From NCBI RefSeq assembly GCF_901538355.1, contig NZ_LR593887.1, positions 4,812,920 through 4,876,919 of the forward strand: a stretch of 64,000 bases of DNA, in the 5' to 3' direction. Positions 4,816 to 29,519 of the stretch are shown in pieces. A program made the position numbers and the translations under genes. The notes beneath the pieces were generated by a model. That model was not told the origin of the DNA and made no database searches. It saw only the letters and a program-made list of their open reading frames with translations. The DNA comes from Tuwongella immobilis. Its GTDB lineage: Bacteria; Planctomycetota; Planctomycetia; Gemmatales; Gemmataceae. Positions within the stretch are counted from its first letter, which is position 1; every line of letters begins with the position of its first letter.

Positions 4816-4855
4816 GCTCCCAGCCGATCCACCGCCGGGAGTGTTGTTCCGAGTG

Positions 4856-6118
4856 ATGCATCGGTTGATTCTTGGGGTTCAAGGGAATGGCCTCCTACTC
4901 GCATGTCGGTGCCGCTTGTCTGGTCTGATCTCCCCTACTGCTGATGCCCTGCGCCCCCGCCCGGTGGTTGTGCTTGGCTCCACTGGCTCCATTGGGCGAA
5001 GCACTTTGGATGTGCTGGCCCACCTTCCCGATCGATTTCCGCTCCTTGGAATCGCCGCACGTTCGAGTGTCGAATTATTCCTGGAGCAGGTTCAAACCTT
5101 TAAGCCACGCTACGCCGTCCTTACCGATCGTGCGGCCTTCGAGCGAGCGTTGACTGCCGACCTCCCCCCGCAAACGCAACTCCTCTTCGGCGAAGAGGGG
5201 ATTGCGAAGATGGTCACGGATGCGGATACGTCGATGGTGGTTTCCGCCATTGTCGGGGCCGCGGGACTCTTCGGCACCTGTCAGGCACTGGAAGTGGGCA
5301 AGACCGTCGCACTGGCCAACAAAGAGACGTTAGTCGTTGGTGGCGAACGGATTATGGAATTGGCCGACGCTCGCGGCACCACGTTGCTGCCCGTCGATAG
5401 CGAACATTCGGCCATCTTCCAAGCCATCGGCAATCACCCGATGGAATCGGTGGAACGGGTGGTGTTGACGGGGAGTGGTGGCCCGTTTCGCGGACGGTCT
5501 GCTGAACAGTTGGCGAATGTCACGATTGAGCAGGCGTTGAATCATCCGACGTGGAAGATGGGTCCGAAAATCACGGTTGATTCCGCGACGCTCATGAACA
5601 AGGCGTTGGAAGTTATCGAAGCTCGCTGGTTATTTCGATTGCCGAGCGAAAAGATTGCCGTGATTCTGCACCCCGAATCGATTGTGCATTCGTTTGTTGA
5701 ATTTATCGATGGTTCGGTGCTGGCCCAACTCTCGCCGCCGGATATGCGGCTGCCGATTCAGTACGCGCTCACCTGGCCGGACCGGGTGCCGGGTCCGACT
5801 CGCCGATTGAATTGGGAAACGCTGGCGAATCTGCGGTTCGAACAACCCGACCGCAAGACGTTTCCTGCATTGGACTTAGGATTTGAAGTCGCCCAACGCG
5901 GCGGAACCTGTGGAGCAGTGCTCAACGGGGCCAATGAAGTCGCGGTTGAACAATTCCTTGAAGGTTTGTTGCCCTTTGATCAGATTGCTCAAGTCGTTCG
6001 GGATGTGCTCCATTCCCATCATTTCATGGCTCGTCCGAGCTTGGATGAATTGTGGGCAGCCGAGCGTTGGGCCCGACAGGAGGTAGTGCGTTGGAATCGC
6101 CACAGGATTCGCCCGTGA
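4856..6118 (+). CDS. dxr: 1-deoxy-D-xylulose 5-phosphate reductoisomerase
   Basis: Converts DXP to 2-C-methyl-D-erythritol 4-phosphate with NADPH and a divalent metal, the committed step of the MEP isoprenoid pathway. Seen in order: the NADPH-binding VVLGSTGSIG, LANKETLVVGG, the metal-site segment LPVDSEHSAIFQ, TGSGGPFR, the substrate loop TWKMGPKITVDSATLMNK, and ILHPESIVHSFVEF. The start at 4856 gives 420 residues with about 33 before the Rossmann motif, slightly long for the family. The upstream ATGs at 4757 and 4814 lie before the inferred transcription start. A TTG further in is also possible. The end overlaps the start of rseP, so the two are cotranscribed, a common dxr-rseP pairing. Confidence 0.93.
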   Translation: MHRLILGVQGNGLLLACRCRLSGLISPTADALRPRPVVVLGSTGSIGRSTLDVLAHLPDRFPLLGIAARSSVELFLEQVQTFKPRYAVLTDRAAFERALTADLPPQTQLLFGEEGIAKMVTDADTSMVVSAIVGAAGLFGTCQALEVGKTVALANKETLVVGGERIMELADARGTTLLPVDSEHSAIFQAIGNHPMESVERVVLTGSGGPFRGRSAEQLANVTIEQALNHPTWKMGPKITVDSATLMNKALEVIEARWLFRLPSEKIAVILHPESIVHSFVEFIDGSVLAQLSPPDMRLPIQYALTWPDRVPGPTRRLNWETLANLRFEQPDRKTFPALDLGFEVAQRGGTCGAVLNGANEVAVEQFLEGLLPFDQIAQVVRDVLHSHHFMARPSLDELWAAERWARQEVVRWNRHRIRP

Positions 6119-9858: not shown

Positions 9859-10018
9859 GATTGAGCACTCATCATGAAGAATTGTCGCCCTGATTTCGCC
9901 TAAGACATTGACAATAATGATCTCACGATGTGGAATCGTAATTCCATAGCCGAAATCTCCGAGTGGAACACATGCTTCACCATTTTGCTCATCAGTTCAT
10001 TGGCTGAGGATCGATTTA

Positions 10019-11203
10019 ATGAGAGAACAGTCCGAGGAATTGCGTGGACAATATTTTTCAATTTGTGCCAAAAGAGATTATGCGACACTCCGAGAGATGC
10101 TTCAAAATCATCCAGAGTTAACCCGAGATGAACGTTGGCTTCAAAGTGCTACGAGAAATCCTCCGATCGAGATTCTCAAAATTCTCCATGAGTTCGGTCT
10201 TGACCTGAATTTCGCACCCTATCACCCCGACCGTCGATTGCTTGATGAGGCTGCATCAGCCAAAAACTGGGCTGTTGTCCGGTGGTTGGTCGAGAATGGT
10301 GCGGCAGTGAATTATGCGCATCAGGGAGAGCCGCGGTGTCGGGCGTTGTTTTTTGCGATCATGGAGCCGAACATGGAGATGGTTCGGTTGTTAGTCGAGG
10401 CGGGGGCGCGATTGGATGTGTGTGGATCAATGAATATCACACCCTTAAGTTGGGCGATCTCTCATGGGCATCAGGAGGTCGTTGATTATTTGCTCGCAAA
10501 AGGGGCCATCCTCTCTGAGCAGGCCGCCAATTATCGGCATCCTCCCATCCGTTCGCCGATGTTGGATTATCTCGAATCACAGATCGGGCAAACAAAACCG
10601 TTAATCGATTTACCTGTCTTGGCCAACATGCCAGATACACTCCGACTCTTTCTGGTGGATACCGAAGATGCGTTCTTTGTTGTGACCGATGGCATGTCGA
10701 ACCGGCCGATGCAACCGCCCGAGGGGGTTGATGGCTATCAACGAGCGGAATTGGCATTTCGGTGTGGAGATTATTTTCCCCGACATCCTGCGGATTGGAA
10801 CATCCCGGAGGTGGCATGGGTGTTGGAATGGATGATCAAACTGGCCGAGTTTCCATTTACGCAAGGGATTTGGTTTGGAAAACCATATGGAGTGATCAGC
10901 AACGAAGAACCACCTCAACCATTATCAGAATTCACTGCCGCAACCTGTTGGGCATTGTTCGGAGAAAAAGATCCATTCTCAGAAGGATTTGTGATCGATA
11001 ACCAACAAGTCGTCATCTACACATTATATCCGATCCATACGGATGAACGCGATTTTGTGATATCCGATGGATTACGCCCATTGTTAGAACGATTCAACAT
11101 GCATGGAATGAGTGCGAATGTTGACCCGACTCGCCGAAGTGTCATCAGCGATCCACCACCGTTGATCGCCGACAATGATGAACGCGAACGTGATGGCATG
11201 TGA
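10019..11203 (+). CDS. ankyrin-repeat protein with C-terminal SUFU (suppressor of fused) domain, copy 1
   Basis: A 394-residue protein with GAGGAT 6-10 bases before the ATG. Ankyrin repeats span about residues 45-165 (for example NWAVVRWLVENGAAVNYAH, EMVRLLVEAGARLDVCGS and QEVVDYLLAKGA). The rest (about 200-365) matches the SUFU fold: a DGMSNRPM-type motif, AELAFRCGD, then WVLEWMIKLAEFP, GKPYGV and late IYTLYPIHTDERDF. Bacterial SUFU proteins are known mostly as immunity proteins of polymorphic toxin systems, and ankyrin modules also recur there. It is followed by a near-identical paralogue 64 bases on. There is no signal peptide, so it is cytoplasmic. Confidence 0.8.
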   Translation: MREQSEELRGQYFSICAKRDYATLREMLQNHPELTRDERWLQSATRNPPIEILKILHEFGLDLNFAPYHPDRRLLDEAASAKNWAVVRWLVENGAAVNYAHQGEPRCRALFFAIMEPNMEMVRLLVEAGARLDVCGSMNITPLSWAISHGHQEVVDYLLAKGAILSEQAANYRHPPIRSPMLDYLESQIGQTKPLIDLPVLANMPDTLRLFLVDTEDAFFVVTDGMSNRPMQPPEGVDGYQRAELAFRCGDYFPRHPADWNIPEVAWVLEWMIKLAEFPFTQGIWFGKPYGVISNEEPPQPLSEFTAATCWALFGEKDPFSEGFVIDNQQVVIYTLYPIHTDERDFVISDGLRPLLERFNMHGMSANVDPTRRSVISDPPPLIADNDERERDGM

Positions 11204-24009: not shown

Positions 24010-24290
24010 CTCAAAATGATGGGTATTGAATTCGGGCCGAATCGTTCTATCTCTTCGGCGACGGTGTATACCGCATGGTCGGGCTGTCGTACCGCTGGTT
24101 GATTTCCTTTCGCTTCGCGAAAACGCTTCGTGGAACAGGACGGCGTACTTTGGGTCAACCTTATCGACTAACTCTTGGTCGAAGCAGTTCGACCCCAGGT
24201 GTTCCCTGCTCCGAACAGATGCCGTTCCGCCCCGAGAATGTCGCCCTCGGACAGGCACTTGACCGCGATCTTGAAGTGCGGGCTATCTGC
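24010..24290 (-). pseudogene. possible decayed gene fragment with frame changes
   Basis: Protein-like pieces appear in successive frames on the minus strand: HFKIAVKCLSEGDILGAERH, then FDQELVDKVDPKYAVLFHEA, then GNQPAVRQPDHAVYTVAEE. Together they would make one protein of about 95 residues broken by two frameshifts. No family was recognised. The right part overlaps the decayed distal end of the cassette array, so this may be partly chance. Confidence 0.3.
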
Positions 24291-24684
24291 GGCACAGGCC
24301 ATCGCCTGGTTTGGCGTCTCGGCCGGGCGGGGTGACCAGCTCGACTGTGTGCCCGTCGAGGTCGCGGACCACGGCCCGACGGCCCCACTCCGAGTCATGC
24401 GGCTCAGCGACCACCTCGGCGCCGAGCGCTTGTACCGATGGCACCAACTCGTCCACAGAATCCACGCTGAAGCCGATCCGCGTGCCGGTCGTCGGTGATC
24501 GGCCCGCTGCGAGCGGGTACAGCTCGAACACGAACCCGTTGACGCTCGACGAGTAATGCTCCGGGCCGTCCCCGTGCCGCTCCGTGGTGAACAGCAGGCC
24601 CAGCGCGCGGTAGAACCGGGCAGCCCGGTGGATGTCGGGCGACCGCAGCACGAGCAGGTTCACCATCGGTGGGGCTGCGAACAC
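24283..24684 (-). CDS. VOC-family (glyoxalase/bleomycin-resistance fold) protein, integron-type cassette gene
   Basis: A 133-residue protein with the paired beta-alpha-beta-beta-beta fold. The first half is VNLLVLRSPDIHRAARFYRALGLLF...; the second is RIGFSVDSVDELVPSVQALG...VRDLDGHTVELVTPP, with the C-terminal metal-ligand Glu position (VELV). The GTG start at 24684 lies 7 bases after GGAGG, and this ribosome site directly abuts the attC-like repeat. An ATG at 24666 is the alternative. Its 3' end runs into the sequence CGCCAAACCAGGCG, a variant of the cassette-end motif. The family includes dioxygenases and antibiotic-binding proteins; the substrate is unknown. GC-rich relative to the neighbourhood. 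Confidence 0.75.
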   Translation of the reverse strand: MFAAPPMVNLLVLRSPDIHRAARFYRALGLLFTTERHGDGPEHYSSSVNGFVFELYPLAAGRSPTTGTRIGFSVDSVDELVPSVQALGAEVVAEPHDSEWGRRAVVRDLDGHTVELVTPPGRDAKPGDGLCRR

Positions 24685-24699
24685 CCGACGCCCTCCGCC

Positions 24700-24790
24700 G
24701 CCGAACGAACAAGCTCAGCAGCCCCGCCTCGGGGAGCCAAGCATCAGAGACATCCGATGAGGCGGGGGCGGCTGTCGCGCCTGGTTCGGC
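24700..24790 (-). repeat. attC-like site 1
   Basis: Read on the minus strand: CGCCGAAC, an imperfect palindrome with GC-rich arms (CCCCCGCCTCATCGG pairing with CCGAGGCGGGG), then GTTCGGCG. The outer 8-mers are perfect inverted complements, like the R'' and R' boxes of integron attC sites. Length is 91 bp. It separates the VOC gene from the next minus-strand gene. Confidence 0.6.
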
Positions 24791-24799
24791 GTGCCTTTG

Positions 24800-25240
24800 C
24801 TACCCCTCGCGCCGCCAGTTGCAGAACCACCCGGCCAGCTCGACCGCCGGCGCGCCCAGCCAGTACATGATGCCGCTCAGCTCGGGCGGCACCTCACCGG
24901 AGAACTCGGGCGGCACCAGCGCCCGGTACGCCTTGCCCACCTTGCGCTTGCCGAACTGGGACGCCAGGTACAGCGGCACCAGCCGGTTGCTCAAGTTGAG
25001 CCGCGACGCACCGATGGCCCGCAGCGCATCCTCAACGGAGAGCGGGCACCACGGCTCCAACTCGACCAGCAGGCACGACGCCCACGCATCGGCTGGAGCG
25101 AGGTCGGTATCTAGCGCGAGTGGCCAGAGCAGCCCGAACACCTCGTCCGCTGCTCGGCCTCGGAGCGCGGCCGCCAGTTGCCGGAAGCGGTCGAGCGTCA
25201 TCGGCGCTGCGAGGGCCGCCCGCAGGTCTTCGGCTGTCAC
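24800..25240 (-). CDS. hypothetical cassette protein
   Basis: A 146-residue, mostly helical, GC-rich gene: LRAALAAPMTLDRFRQLAAAL, CLLVELEPWCPLSVEDALRAIGAS and VELAGWFCNW. GTG start at 25240 with GGAGG about 10 bases upstream, again directly next to the attC-like GTTCGGCG end. There is no own promoter-like spacing and no family was recognised. It sits between two attC-like sites, as an integron gene cassette would. Confidence 0.55.
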   Translation of the reverse strand: MTAEDLRAALAAPMTLDRFRQLAAALRGRAADEVFGLLWPLALDTDLAPADAWASCLLVELEPWCPLSVEDALRAIGASRLNLSNRLVPLYLASQFGKRKVGKAYRALVPPEFSGEVPPELSGIMYWLGAPAVELAGWFCNWRREG

Positions 25241-25258
25241 CCCCGGATGCCCTCCGCC

Positions 25259-25354
25259 GCCGAACGACCCAGCTCAGCAGCGGCGGGGCACCGGCGAGCT
25301 TGAAGTCCTAGAAACCTATCGTGCCCCGCCGTCTGCTGCAGCGCCTGGTTCGGC
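25259..25354 (-). repeat. attC-like site 2 (best preserved)
   Basis: 96 bp from GCCGAAC to GTTCGGC. On the minus strand the arms GCTGCAGCAGACGGCGGGGCAC and GTGCCCCGCCGCTGCTGAGC pair almost completely. A two-base bulge on one side resembles the extrahelical bases of attC hairpins. It overlaps the 3' end of the upstream cassette gene, as is common in cassettes. Confidence 0.65.
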
Positions 25355-25841
25355 GTGCCTTGTTGTACTCGGCGAGATCGACCGCCTCGGGGAAGTACCG
25401 CCGGAAGCTCTCGCCGATGGCCCGATCCTTGCACAGCAGTAGCGTGCTTGTCGAGTCCCAGCACACGATCTCAACCTCGGCCAGCGGGTGCTGGATGCGC
25501 GGCTCGTCCACCCAGAACCCGGCGTTGCCGTCCGCGTAGGGGACGACCGCCAACCGATCCAGGTCGAGCGATACGCCTAGCGGGAAGCTGGACAGCACCG
25601 CCCACACAAACTGCATGTCATGCTCGGCCACCAGCCTCGACAATTCCTCGCCAGTCCGCCAGTGCGGCCCACTGCCGATGAACGGTGCATGTTCGTCGTC
25701 CTCGTGAACCCCAAGCCAGCCGTAATCCAGATCGGTGATGAGCCAGTTGAAGTCACGCTGCCGATCGCCGATGGCTCGGAAGACGAGGCGCAGGTCGGTG
25801 AAGTACTCCATCTCGCAGCGGCCTTCGAGAAGCGTCTCCAC
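25308..25841 (-). CDS. hypothetical cassette protein
   Basis: A 177-residue protein starting at GTG 25841, with GGAGG 9 bases upstream inside the cassette boundary; an ATG at 25811 (MEYFTDLRLVFRAIG) is possible. The core reads as a folded soluble protein: FNWLITDLDYGWLGVHEDDE, EELSRLVAEHDMQFVWAVLSSF and VCWDSTSTLLLCKD. The last ~20 residues (RRTRRCSRRRG) are encoded by the attC-like repeat, and the conserved-looking part ends before it. The fold recalls small immunity-type proteins, but no family is claimed. Confidence 0.6.
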   Translation of the reverse strand: METLLEGRCEMEYFTDLRLVFRAIGDRQRDFNWLITDLDYGWLGVHEDDEHAPFIGSGPHWRTGEELSRLVAEHDMQFVWAVLSSFPLGVSLDLDRLAVVPYADGNAGFWVDEPRIQHPLAEVEIVCWDSTSTLLLCKDRAIGESFRRYFPEAVDLAEYNKARRTRRCSRRRGTIGF

Positions 25842-25858
25842 CGCCGTTGTCCTCCGCC

Positions 25859-26115
25859 GCCGAACTCTTGATTCGATTGCGCCGCAAGGAAACGATCCTT
25901 GCACACCGCGCAATCGATCACGGTCGCATCGTTGTCTTCGCTTTCTGCGTAAATTCAATCCCAATCGTTGATTCCGGTCATTTTCCCCGAATTCGTCGCC
26001 AGCGAACGATTGCGCTGGATGCAATCGTTCGTGGGAAATCACACTTGCGTCCTGCATGATTCTTCGAGGTCAAGCAGAGGCAAGCCACGCCATCTGCTGC
26101 AGCGTCGGGTTCGGC
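25859..26115 (-). repeat. attC-like boundary 3, enlarged or rearranged
   Basis: GCCGAAC (25859-25865) and GTTCGGC (26109-26115) are in the same relation as in the other two sites but 257 bp apart. The left arm CGCTGCAGCAGATGGCG resembles site 2. The middle contains an unrelated AT-richer insert with two palindromes: CGATTGCG...CGCAATCG around 25873-25914, and CGAACGATTGC / GCAATCGTTCG at 26003-26013 and 26021-26031. Confidence 0.4.
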
Positions 26116-26387
26116 GTGTGCGCGACGCCCTCGCTCGAACTCCGGCAACGCCCAGTATCCCAGTCGCGGCCGCTGCAACAGGATGGCCGCCACCATGCAC
26201 GCCGCGAAGACGAGCAGCGGGTACTGACACCGCTGCCATCGCGTCGGGGCGTAAACGAATAGCAGGGCCGGCGGGAACAATCAGAACGCGATGGCCCACG
26301 CCCTAAACTCCTCGAAGGAGTCGGACAGCAGGACGAAGTCAGCCTTCAGGCCGACCAGCCACACCACGCCCAGAACGCTGTCTTCAC
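25978..26387 (-). pseudogene. frameshifted small membrane protein gene in a cassette
   Basis: GGAGG followed by GTG at 26387 begins VKTAFWAW, but the frame soon stops. The continuation is readable in a second frame (WLVGLKADFVLLSDSFEEF, RAWAIAF then TGA) and then a third (LFPPALLFVYAPTRW, YPLLVFAACMVAAILL, GYWALPEFE). Joined, these give a protein of about 85 residues with two or three hydrophobic segments. Two frameshifts make it a pseudogene unless the assembly is wrong. The last frame runs through the attC-like motif to 25978. Confidence 0.45.
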
Positions 26388-26407
26388 AGGCAACCTCCGT
26401 TTCCGTC

Positions 26408-26430
26408 GCCGAACAACGGAATCGGCGTGC
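26408..26430 (-). repeat. collapsed attC-like site
   Basis: On the minus strand GCACGCCGA is joined, after a few bases, to TTGTTCGGCG. The two outer boxes are present but the ~80-bp palindromic middle is missing, as expected if the hairpin was deleted. Confidence 0.4.
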
Positions 26431-26705
26431 CTTTGTCTGTCCAGGACACGACGCCCTCGATTGCCGGATGAAGCAGGCGGCGATGAGGGTTGCGGGCTAC
26501 AGGCTCAATCATCGAATCGCTCGTCACCAGTCGGAGCGGGAACCTTGCGGCTTGAGATCGGTATCCGCGTCTGGATCGGGCACGTTACGATTGAGAGGTT
26601 GCCATATGGCCAGCGGTCACCCACCGGCAGCCACCCACACGGGCGGCCCAACCTCAATGCCTGCCCCGGCCGACGCCCGAAGGACGCCGTGCCTGGCTCG
26701 TGGGA
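26431..26705 (-). other. decayed cassette sequence, no intact gene
   Basis: No complete gene with a ribosome site was found. A short minus-strand tail (WQPLNRNVPDPDADTDLKPQ, then a stop near 26537) looks like the end of a lost gene. GTTGGGC at 26652-26646 (minus strand) matches the classical attC core GTTRRRY and may be the remains of another site. Confidence 0.35.
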
Positions 26706-27203
26706 TCACCGGATCGCGTCCGGCGGCAGATCGGAGTCCGCCAGCAGAGACGCATCGACGGCGATCATTGTGCGGTAGTTGAACTGGTCCAACTCGTCCT
26801 GAATGCGGTCGATTTCCTGCTCCACCCGCCGGACCTCCCGGTCGATATCCGGCTTGCGGAACTGGGCGACGTAGTTCGTCCGAACCCCGGAGAACCCCTC
26901 GATGGAAGGGCCATGCTTGGTGTTCACCTTGCCGAGCATGGCGACCAACGCCTTGCACTCGGCCAACTCGAAGATCAGCCCCTGAATCGGCTTGTTGGCA
27001 GCGTTGAGGGCCACTTTGAGCTGGACCAGTTGCTCGGCCAGCACCATCCGCTGCTTGTAGAGCAGGCGGACATCGTACTCCTGATTGTCCTCGATATCGC
27101 TGTTGTAGGTGATGATCTGCATGTCGAGTTGCGACAGGCGGTGGACAACGCGGTTCTTGAGCTTGAGTGCCCGCGACAGGTTGATCTGCGTCATCTCGGC
27201 CAC
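26706..27203 (-). CDS. coiled-coil protein, DIP1984/DUF6847-like
   Basis: A 165-residue, highly helical, charged protein. It begins MAEMTQINLSRALKLKNRVV and ends with a helical pair REVRRVEQEIDRIQDELDQFNY followed by a short tail. The layout (N-terminal LxxALxLK helix, paired helices, terminal IDxIQxxLxxxNY) resembles DIP1984/septicolysin-like coiled-coil proteins; this assignment is tentative. GTG start at 27203 with GGAGG 7 bases upstream. A degenerate GTTCGACGGCAGAGGC just before it resembles the cassette 5' boundary, suggesting it entered as a cassette too. Confidence 0.6.
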   Translation of the reverse strand: MAEMTQINLSRALKLKNRVVHRLSQLDMQIITYNSDIEDNQEYDVRLLYKQRMVLAEQLVQLKVALNAANKPIQGLIFELAECKALVAMLGKVNTKHGPSIEGFSGVRTNYVAQFRKPDIDREVRRVEQEIDRIQDELDQFNYRTMIAVDASLLADSDLPPDAIR

Positions 27204-27451
27204 GTTCGCCCCTCCGAAAAGCCTCTGCCGTCGAACAACCGATGATCCCGCGACGTGTCGCAGAGCAACACCAGATCACGCGAGTCTGAGCAGACGCCTA
27301 CGTTCGTCTGAACCCGTTGTCAGATCACGACTTCCGACATCACACCGCGATAATCGCGGCGAAGGATCACGCGGTAACGGCTACCTGCGTCGAATCGCGA
27401 TCCGCTCAAACCATCGAGCGGGATATCGATGCCTCGCCCGCCCTGGTTTTA

Positions 27452-28934: not shown

Positions 28935-29174
28935 GACACACCTCCCCTTGCAAAAGCCGAACTCATCAATTGGCTGCGAACGTCGCAGCCTCTTTCTGAC
29001 CTACTTTTATCATGATCGGCTGCGAAGACTCGCGGCCGATCATGACTCCCTACTGCTGGGTTTCTTCACTCCAAGCCATTGCTGGCAAACTACTTGCATT
29101 CCGCCAGCTATGCTCTTGACGAGCCATATTCTTGTGTTCGGCTGCAAGCGACTGCCAGTTGGTCCGGTGGCATC

Positions 29175-29345
29175 TCCTTGCAACAGATCCGCTGGGCTTT
29201 GAATGTTGTCCCGGTTTCGCAACAGCACATGGGTGTCGATTATCGCCGCATCCACATCAGCATGTCCGAGCAACTCCAGCACGGGGCGGAAGTCCGGACT
29301 AGCCTCGAGTCGACTATGTCGCAAACGCATGCTGGAACGTGTGAC
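29175..29345 (-). pseudogene. fragment of an integron-type tyrosine recombinase (IntI-like)
   Basis: About 50 residues match the C-terminal end of integron integrases: LRHS, then VLELLGHADVDAAIIDTHVL and a QSPADLL tail. GHADV carries the box II His/Trp-position motif. The R-S-P-[AL]-D tail after THVL is characteristic of IntI rather than XerC/D. The catalytic Tyr of IYTHV is Asp here (IDTHV), and the HxLRHS His is lost. Everything N-terminal is missing; the fragment begins next to copy 2 of the long direct repeat. Clearly non-functional. Confidence 0.65.
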
Positions 29346-29360
29346 ATGACGCTCACTTCG

Positions 29361-29519
29361 TGAGGATCTCGGACACATGCGAATTCTCGTCTGGTCGAAT
29401 CATAAACCGCTACAAATTGACTATCAAGCAGTTCTACCCTTTGACACTATTTTTTCATTGCGACGAATTGCCTGGCTCCTGCCGCGAATCACTCGGGCCG
29501 CCACGCTTTGAATCACGCG
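29361..29519. repeat. long direct repeat, copy 2
   Basis: About 159 bp, same orientation as 27452-27608 and nearly identical, including TTCTACCCTTTGACACTATT and CACTCGGGCCGCCAC. It abuts the truncated integrase fragment. From its end to 29702 no gene is supported. Confidence 0.85.

Follow-up and report, generated by a model that had tools for sequence, protein, structure and literature searches.

A probable decayed integron of the reverse type in Tuwongella immobilis, and attI-like sites without an integrase in its relatives

In a stretch of 64,000 nucleotides from the planctomycete Tuwongella immobilis (Gemmataceae; contig NZ_LR593887.1, positions 4,812,920 to 4,876,919; hereafter the window), small genes on the minus strand are separated by GC-rich imperfect palindromes, which a preliminary description made from the sequence alone took for the attC sites of an integron cassette array. 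Are they attC sites and, if so, what became of the insertion site (attI) and of the integrase gene (intI)? We find attC sites, an attI-like site and fragments of the 3' end of intI, and hold that the region is, with a probability of about 0.9, a chromosomal integron of reverse layout that has decayed; in this type intI lies on the cassette strand and is transcribed towards attI. Genomes (G) and loci (L) are cited below by our own numbers.

attC sites in the window and in the genome

Two sites carry the argument, each enclosed by the outer boxes GCCGAAC and GTTCGGC. These lie at 24700-24706 and 24784-24790 in the first (span 91 bp) and at 25259-25265 and 25348-25354 in the second (span 96 bp), exactly where the preliminary description had placed them. 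The corresponding features, both scored with a covariance model (R1) that included them in its training set, are:

24691-24795, minus strand: attC of cassette 2 (R1 96 bits, E 3.5e-21; hairpin fold z -2.1 on the minus strand)
25250-25359, minus strand: attC of cassette 1 (R1 113 bits, E 2.6e-25; hairpin fold z -4.2 on the minus strand)

On the gene (minus) strand the elements of each site follow the order R''-spacer-L''-loop-L'-spacer-R'. In the genome (6.69 Mb, one contig) the pattern CGCCGAAC-N60-90-GTTCGGCG occurs at 17 sites and its reversed control at none; all 17 fall into four clusters, at 1511-1520, 4837-4838 (the window), 5361-5363 and 5818-5822 kb. Their alignment (A1), in which GCCGAAC and GTTCGGC are present in 17/17 sites chosen by that very pattern and the AAC/GTT triplet is kept, gives a consensus hairpin with compensatory changes in nine of its 25 pairs; two bases of the L'' arm stay unpaired without a partner, and a central spacer and the variable loop are likewise unpaired, as in the published plan of attC sites.

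We put the number of attC sites in the genome at about 45. Model R1 returned 49 matches there, one of them the opposite strand of another listed site, and nearly all lie in the four pattern clusters or in two small clusters near 1607 and 6166-6170 kb, with numerous degraded sites among them. In an alignment of the matches from the array loci (A2), 102 cells had changed on both sides, compared with 38 +/- 4.5 in shuffles (0/500), a figure biased towards the R1 structure by the fitting of the alignment to the model; 89% of cells were paired in the attC covariation test, and 13 pairs showed changes on both sides. R1 sites were found in 32 of 59 genomes (source genome included), all of one order, and at E 1e-6 there were none in genomes from other families of the class. 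An Rfam search of the window gave no match, and no tRNA genes were found in it.

Each site adjoins one gene in the same orientation and the repeat is restricted to arrays: 24700-24790 and 25259-25354 are integron attC sites. Lying 559 bp apart, with no intI above the cut-off in the genome, they qualify as a cluster of attC sites lacking an integron-integrase (CALIN). The preliminary description had proposed cassette organisation of this type, to be checked by folding the two sites and by looking for a genome-wide scatter of the repeat; with both sites forming hairpins, strong covariation in the stems and the repeat confined to cassette arrays, the proposal holds.

The insertion site and the integrase remnants

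Upstream of the cassette genes lies a third site, at 25844-26118, which proved to be composed of the left half of an attC, a remnant of the intI 3' end and an attI, the last recognised by a model (R2) trained on copies of this genome and six relatives:

25844-25930, minus strand: attI core with the crossover box GTTCGGC at 25859-25865 and palindromic arms (R2 100 bits, this copy being part of the R2 training set; fold z -5.1)
26039-26078, minus strand: in-frame remnant of the last ~12 intI codons and the stop, LDLEESCRTQV*, corresponding to LDLGETLGAQE* in L027 (alignment to the intI 3' ends of L026 and L027)
26085-26118, minus strand: attC left half (R''-L''), fused to the intI remnant and attI (R'' match, 2 mismatches)

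A block of ~200 bp inside 25859-26118 has seven more copies among the array loci of this genome. In L026 and L027 it stands immediately 3' of an intI fragment, and the copies extend to GTTCGGC (degenerate in both L025 copies), beyond which differing cassettes follow. In relatives with a full-length IntI, a compact homologue of the form GTGATAG-A/C-TTGCGC...GCGCAATCTAAT...GTTCGGC (L029, L030, L031, L032, L034, L037) is situated about 140-190 bp past the intI stop and right ahead of the first cassette; the intI open reading frame (ORF) of L037 is longer and overlaps it. The block thus lies between the intI 3' end and the first cassette, where a reverse integron has its attI, and on grounds of sequence comparison we regard the third site as mostly an attI insertion site; of the three gene cassettes behind it, two are intact and one is truncated. 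The preliminary description had counted several rearranged repeats here. Sorted out, these comprise the remnants at 24297-24318, 26399-26431 and 27221-27236 (listed in the last section) and, at 25844-26118, the attI with its intI remnant and attC left half, which that description had not recognised.

The same fusion of attC left half, intI 3' end and attI occurs twice in L025 (6630-6897 and 2398-2656), where the sequence upstream of R'' is unrelated; the outer flanks of the three chimeric copies (25844-26118 in the window and the two in L025) are unrelated to one another on both sides. Upstream of the attI in the window, a sigma-70-like promoter match scored no better than shuffles.

No match in the one-contig genome (96% estimated completeness) exceeded the integron-integrase cut-off in a profile search. 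The best match is a C-terminal piece (profile positions 160-314) at 5816 kb, below the cut-off; further intI matches were obtained at 5361 kb and within the window, and the remaining ones are XerC/D-sized and weaker. Two features of the window belong here:

29184-29375, minus strand: frameshifted C-terminal intI remnant (TIGR02249, 31.5 bits; tblastn with IntI of relatives as queries, two frames, E about 1e-6 to 1e-8)
28941-29005, minus strand: possible older attI downstream of the intI remnant (R2 14 bits, E 0.19; weak)

What adjoins attI is 3' fragments and no intact intI. In the window, L026 and L027 these remnants lie on the cassette strand with the 3' end facing attI, as do intact intI genes in relatives, and attI is found between the intI 3' end and the first cassette, strongly at 25.86 kb and weakly at 28.96 kb. 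Same-strand attC sites follow intI in L029, L030, L031, L032, L033, L037, L059 and L034 (as L157), and in L036 the reverse layout was read from the position of attI; these layout labels rest on R1 matches and cover part of the tree. A maximum-likelihood tree places the L027 fragment and nine planctomycete IntI in one clade (support 100/98), with a Treponema IntI (L103) outside it. The L027 fragment is a 225-amino-acid ORF (9929-10606) in which the N-terminal half of IntI is gone and an unrelated sequence precedes the C-terminal half. A second IntI lineage of the same family shows the classical divergent layout (L035, L038, L042, L043); the attC sites of these loci are recognised by the same model R1.

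From what is known of integrons, we suggest that IntI, a tyrosine recombinase, would have joined the attC hairpins of incoming cassettes to attI at the R' triplet GTT, with the crossover at GTTCGGC 25859-25865 and each cassette consisting of one gene and its attC. Such past activity, and any order of insertion deduced from it, would fit a layout in which cassette genes are read away from attI on the minus strand and intI, upstream on the same strand and pointing towards attI, was later reduced to 3' fragments. The search of the genome having turned up no intact IntI, this array and the others there are probably frozen, barring an integrase from outside.

Orphan attI sites and rival readings

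Matches to R2 occur in 16 of the 59 genomes (source genome included), and none were found in other families of the class or in G003, G008, G019 and G026, where classical intI only was seen. The source genome has 13 attI-like matches, ten of which are followed within 2 kb by an attC on the same strand and none by one on the opposite strand (0.3% for a random site), and the window array is one of several in this genome that are headed by an attI. Two attI-like sites ~360 bp apart at 3743 kb (L148, 3955-4041 and 4401-4464) had no attC or intI nearby. In at least three relatives (G032, G009 and G031) one attI each lies behind an intact intI, in addition to further attI without intI (here called orphans). 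The related genomes hold one or a few intact reverse intI-attI platforms together with extra attI lacking intI, several of them heading arrays; in L154, L155, L156, L158, L159, L160 and L151 attC lies downstream and no trace of intI was seen in the flanks examined (mostly ~3 kb upstream), and the attI of L161 sits within an array.

The attI of the reverse clade is a covarying imperfect palindrome. Among 23 attI matches (alignment A5), ten of 11 pairs show changes on both sides, and covariation reaches 0.336 as compared with 0.119 in shuffles (0/500), figures to be read with three caveats: the model to which the alignment was fitted already had this structure, one pair of rows represents the two strands of a single site, and the rows are related. 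L164 has the best fold, a perfect hairpin of 16 bp, but several sites fold no better than shuffles. Paired changes in the arms would also be expected if both arms bind the same evolving protein, so that a functional fold is not established by them. A -35/-10-like pair, TTGACA-17-TAGCCT, stands upstream of four orphan attI in two genera (twice in L149 of the source genome; in L154 and L155 of G032) within largely dissimilar flanks, its single-site scores being marginal against mononucleotide shuffles (0.015-0.055); we consider it a candidate cassette promoter.

How did the orphans arise? We find it slightly more likely than not that they are duplicates of whole platforms whose intI decayed, in which case neither a stand-alone attI nor service in trans would be involved. 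Remnants of intI beside attI in L026, L027, the window, L152 and L164 speak for this, as does the general view of CALINs as degraded integrons (PMC9024848). Set against it are at least seven orphans without a trace of intI in the flanks examined, the presence of several orphans in genomes with an intact IntI, and a homology between orphan and platform attI that is often just the ~45-bp core. On these grounds it is not evident that such orphans derive from entire duplicated platforms that lost intI, although long divergence could produce the same result. More tentatively, attI might be a stand-alone, foldable, attC-like palindrome copied around the genome, sometimes with a promoter, so that one integrase could serve several arrays in trans.

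For the window itself, three other explanations compete with a decayed reverse integron. Short GC-rich intergenic palindromes are common in bacteria and many degraded sites occur in this genome, so the hairpins could be an ordinary interspersed palindrome between small genes, of the repetitive extragenic palindrome (REP), bacterial interspersed mosaic element (BIME) or miniature inverted-repeat transposable element (MITE) kind; yet no dispersal independent of gene arrays was found, the sites cluster with attI and intI remnants, one gene each and on one strand, their boxes are conserved and their stems covary, and sites of the same class adjoin intact intI in relatives, all of which makes this reading exceedingly improbable. 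Nor do we give much credence to a small mobile element that inserted into an attC at 25844-26080. Eight similar copies in array loci, three with an attC left half directly upstream, speak for it, but the block starts within the intI 3' end and stops at the crossover box, no target duplication is seen in the alignment of copies, and in six relatives, which belong to other genera, a compact homologue is found at the corresponding position downstream of an intact intI, a finding for which we dropped the mobile-element reading of 25859-26118. It is also unlikely, if less so, that the array is still active through a xenologous IntI or an integrase missed in the genome: clean attC sites with intact folds persist and foreign IntI can use CALIN cassettes (PMC9668308), but the arrays hold degraded sites, no IntI exceeded the cut-off in this nearly complete genome, and its other integrase matches are the weaker XerC/D-sized ones.

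Some points weigh against the decayed reverse integron as well. R1 and R2 were scored partly on their own training sites, and the R box GTTCGGC departs from the consensus GTTRRRY at one position (C for R). The window attI follows a chimeric junction and may be a rearranged relic, not the point of entry of these three cassettes; the intI remnant at 29.2 kb has a weak link to the array, a 14-bit attI-like match. Further afield, every orphan attI might be a platform minus its intI, which would leave a mechanism in trans unneeded.

Known systems and remaining features

The preliminary description called the array undescribed-looking, which is too strong: a covariance model for Planctomycetes attC is among the 11 published for individual taxa (PMC8352920), and intI from planctomycetes is an older finding (PMC2426708). 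The sites reported here are planctomycete chromosomal attC and probably of the same general class. Reverse ("unusual") integrons have been described in Treponema denticola, Blastopirellula marina and others (PMC3607928, PMC6557892), and share with the Gemmataceae type an intI on the cassette strand that is transcribed towards attI; the Gemmataceae-type IntI differ in forming their own supported clade apart from Treponema IntI, and are additionally accompanied by a palindromic, covarying attI and by extra attI without intI.

The core of attI1 has the form AAC-AA-GTT. This form and the attC architecture are shared with classical integrons (class 1, Vibrio), in which intI is divergent from the cassettes, opposite to the orientation found here. 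Like a CALIN, the window array has at least two attC with single small genes in the same orientation and lacks an intact intI in the vicinity; it differs in being headed by a recognisable attI and intI 3' remnants. CALINs are common, and attI is not detected outside class 1 by IntegronFinder 2.0 (PMC9024848), so that the window array would be reported as a bare CALIN.

The array itself adds to what is known of planctomycete attC and reverse integrons; the family picture of orphan attI is less expected. Our literature search, in which subscription papers were mostly out of reach, found no paper on integrons of Gemmata or Gemmataceae, no description of orphan attI and no use of the phrase 'orphan attI'. 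Because surveys count intI and attC, and no attI outside class 1, most CALINs are handled as headless debris. With the attI model, many arrays without intI in a single bacterial family prove to have a real-looking insertion site at their head. Whether CALINs are dead remains, or satellites that an integrase elsewhere in the genome serves, thereby becomes open to test. In the standard view attI recombines only as double-stranded DNA, which a palindromic attI with covarying arms would call into question.

The cassette genes and the remaining remnants are as follows:

25308-25811, minus strand: cassette 1 gene, 167 amino acids, no known family, running into its own attC (ORF; homologue in G008)
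24800-25240, minus strand: cassette 2 gene, 146 amino acids, no known family (ORF)
24283-24684, minus strand: cassette 3 gene, 133 amino acids, glyoxalase/VOC, running through the truncated attC (Pfam PF00903, E 2e-12)
24297-24318, minus strand: truncated attC (R'' half) of cassette 3, array end (R'' match, 6 mismatches; repeat family D5)
26399-26431, minus strand: attC remnant with both R boxes, hairpin missing (R1 14 bits, E 0.21, weak alone; supported by place and strand)
26706-27203, minus strand: ORF of 165 amino acids between box remnants, possibly an older cassette gene, a putative assignment (distant homologues in two relatives)
27221-27236, minus strand: possible degenerate R' box (3 mismatches; chance matches equally good elsewhere in the window)

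The genes had been said to enter the repeat at their 3' ends, which applies to 25308-25811 and 24283-24684; the stop codon of 24800-25240 lies 7 bp ahead of its site. The protein of cassette 2 has no Pfam or NCBIfam match and no homologue among the 58 relatives searched. That of cassette 1 has one in a single relative, G008, where the nucleotide match covers 25374-25841 only, from just past attI to just short of attC; at the sequence level this marks cassette 1 as a unit, and implies neither direction nor route of exchange. R1 found no attC adjoining the G008 copy. The homologue there (L141, C27:33600-37600) lies between two direct repeats of ~122 bp, with a third partial copy upstream; as another type of cassette this repeat was rejected, a search of eight genomes having given three matches, all at a single locus of one genome.

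A further direct repeat, 27452-27608/29361-29519 (159 bp, 93% identical), touches the 5' edge of the intI remnant with one copy, and was discarded as a genome-wide element for want of copies beyond these two in the genome. Cassette ORFs of L026 and L027 often continue across R''; a stereotyped C-terminal tail is then encoded by attC and differs with the frame, for example RHAEPGAAADGGA or PNQALQQTAGH.

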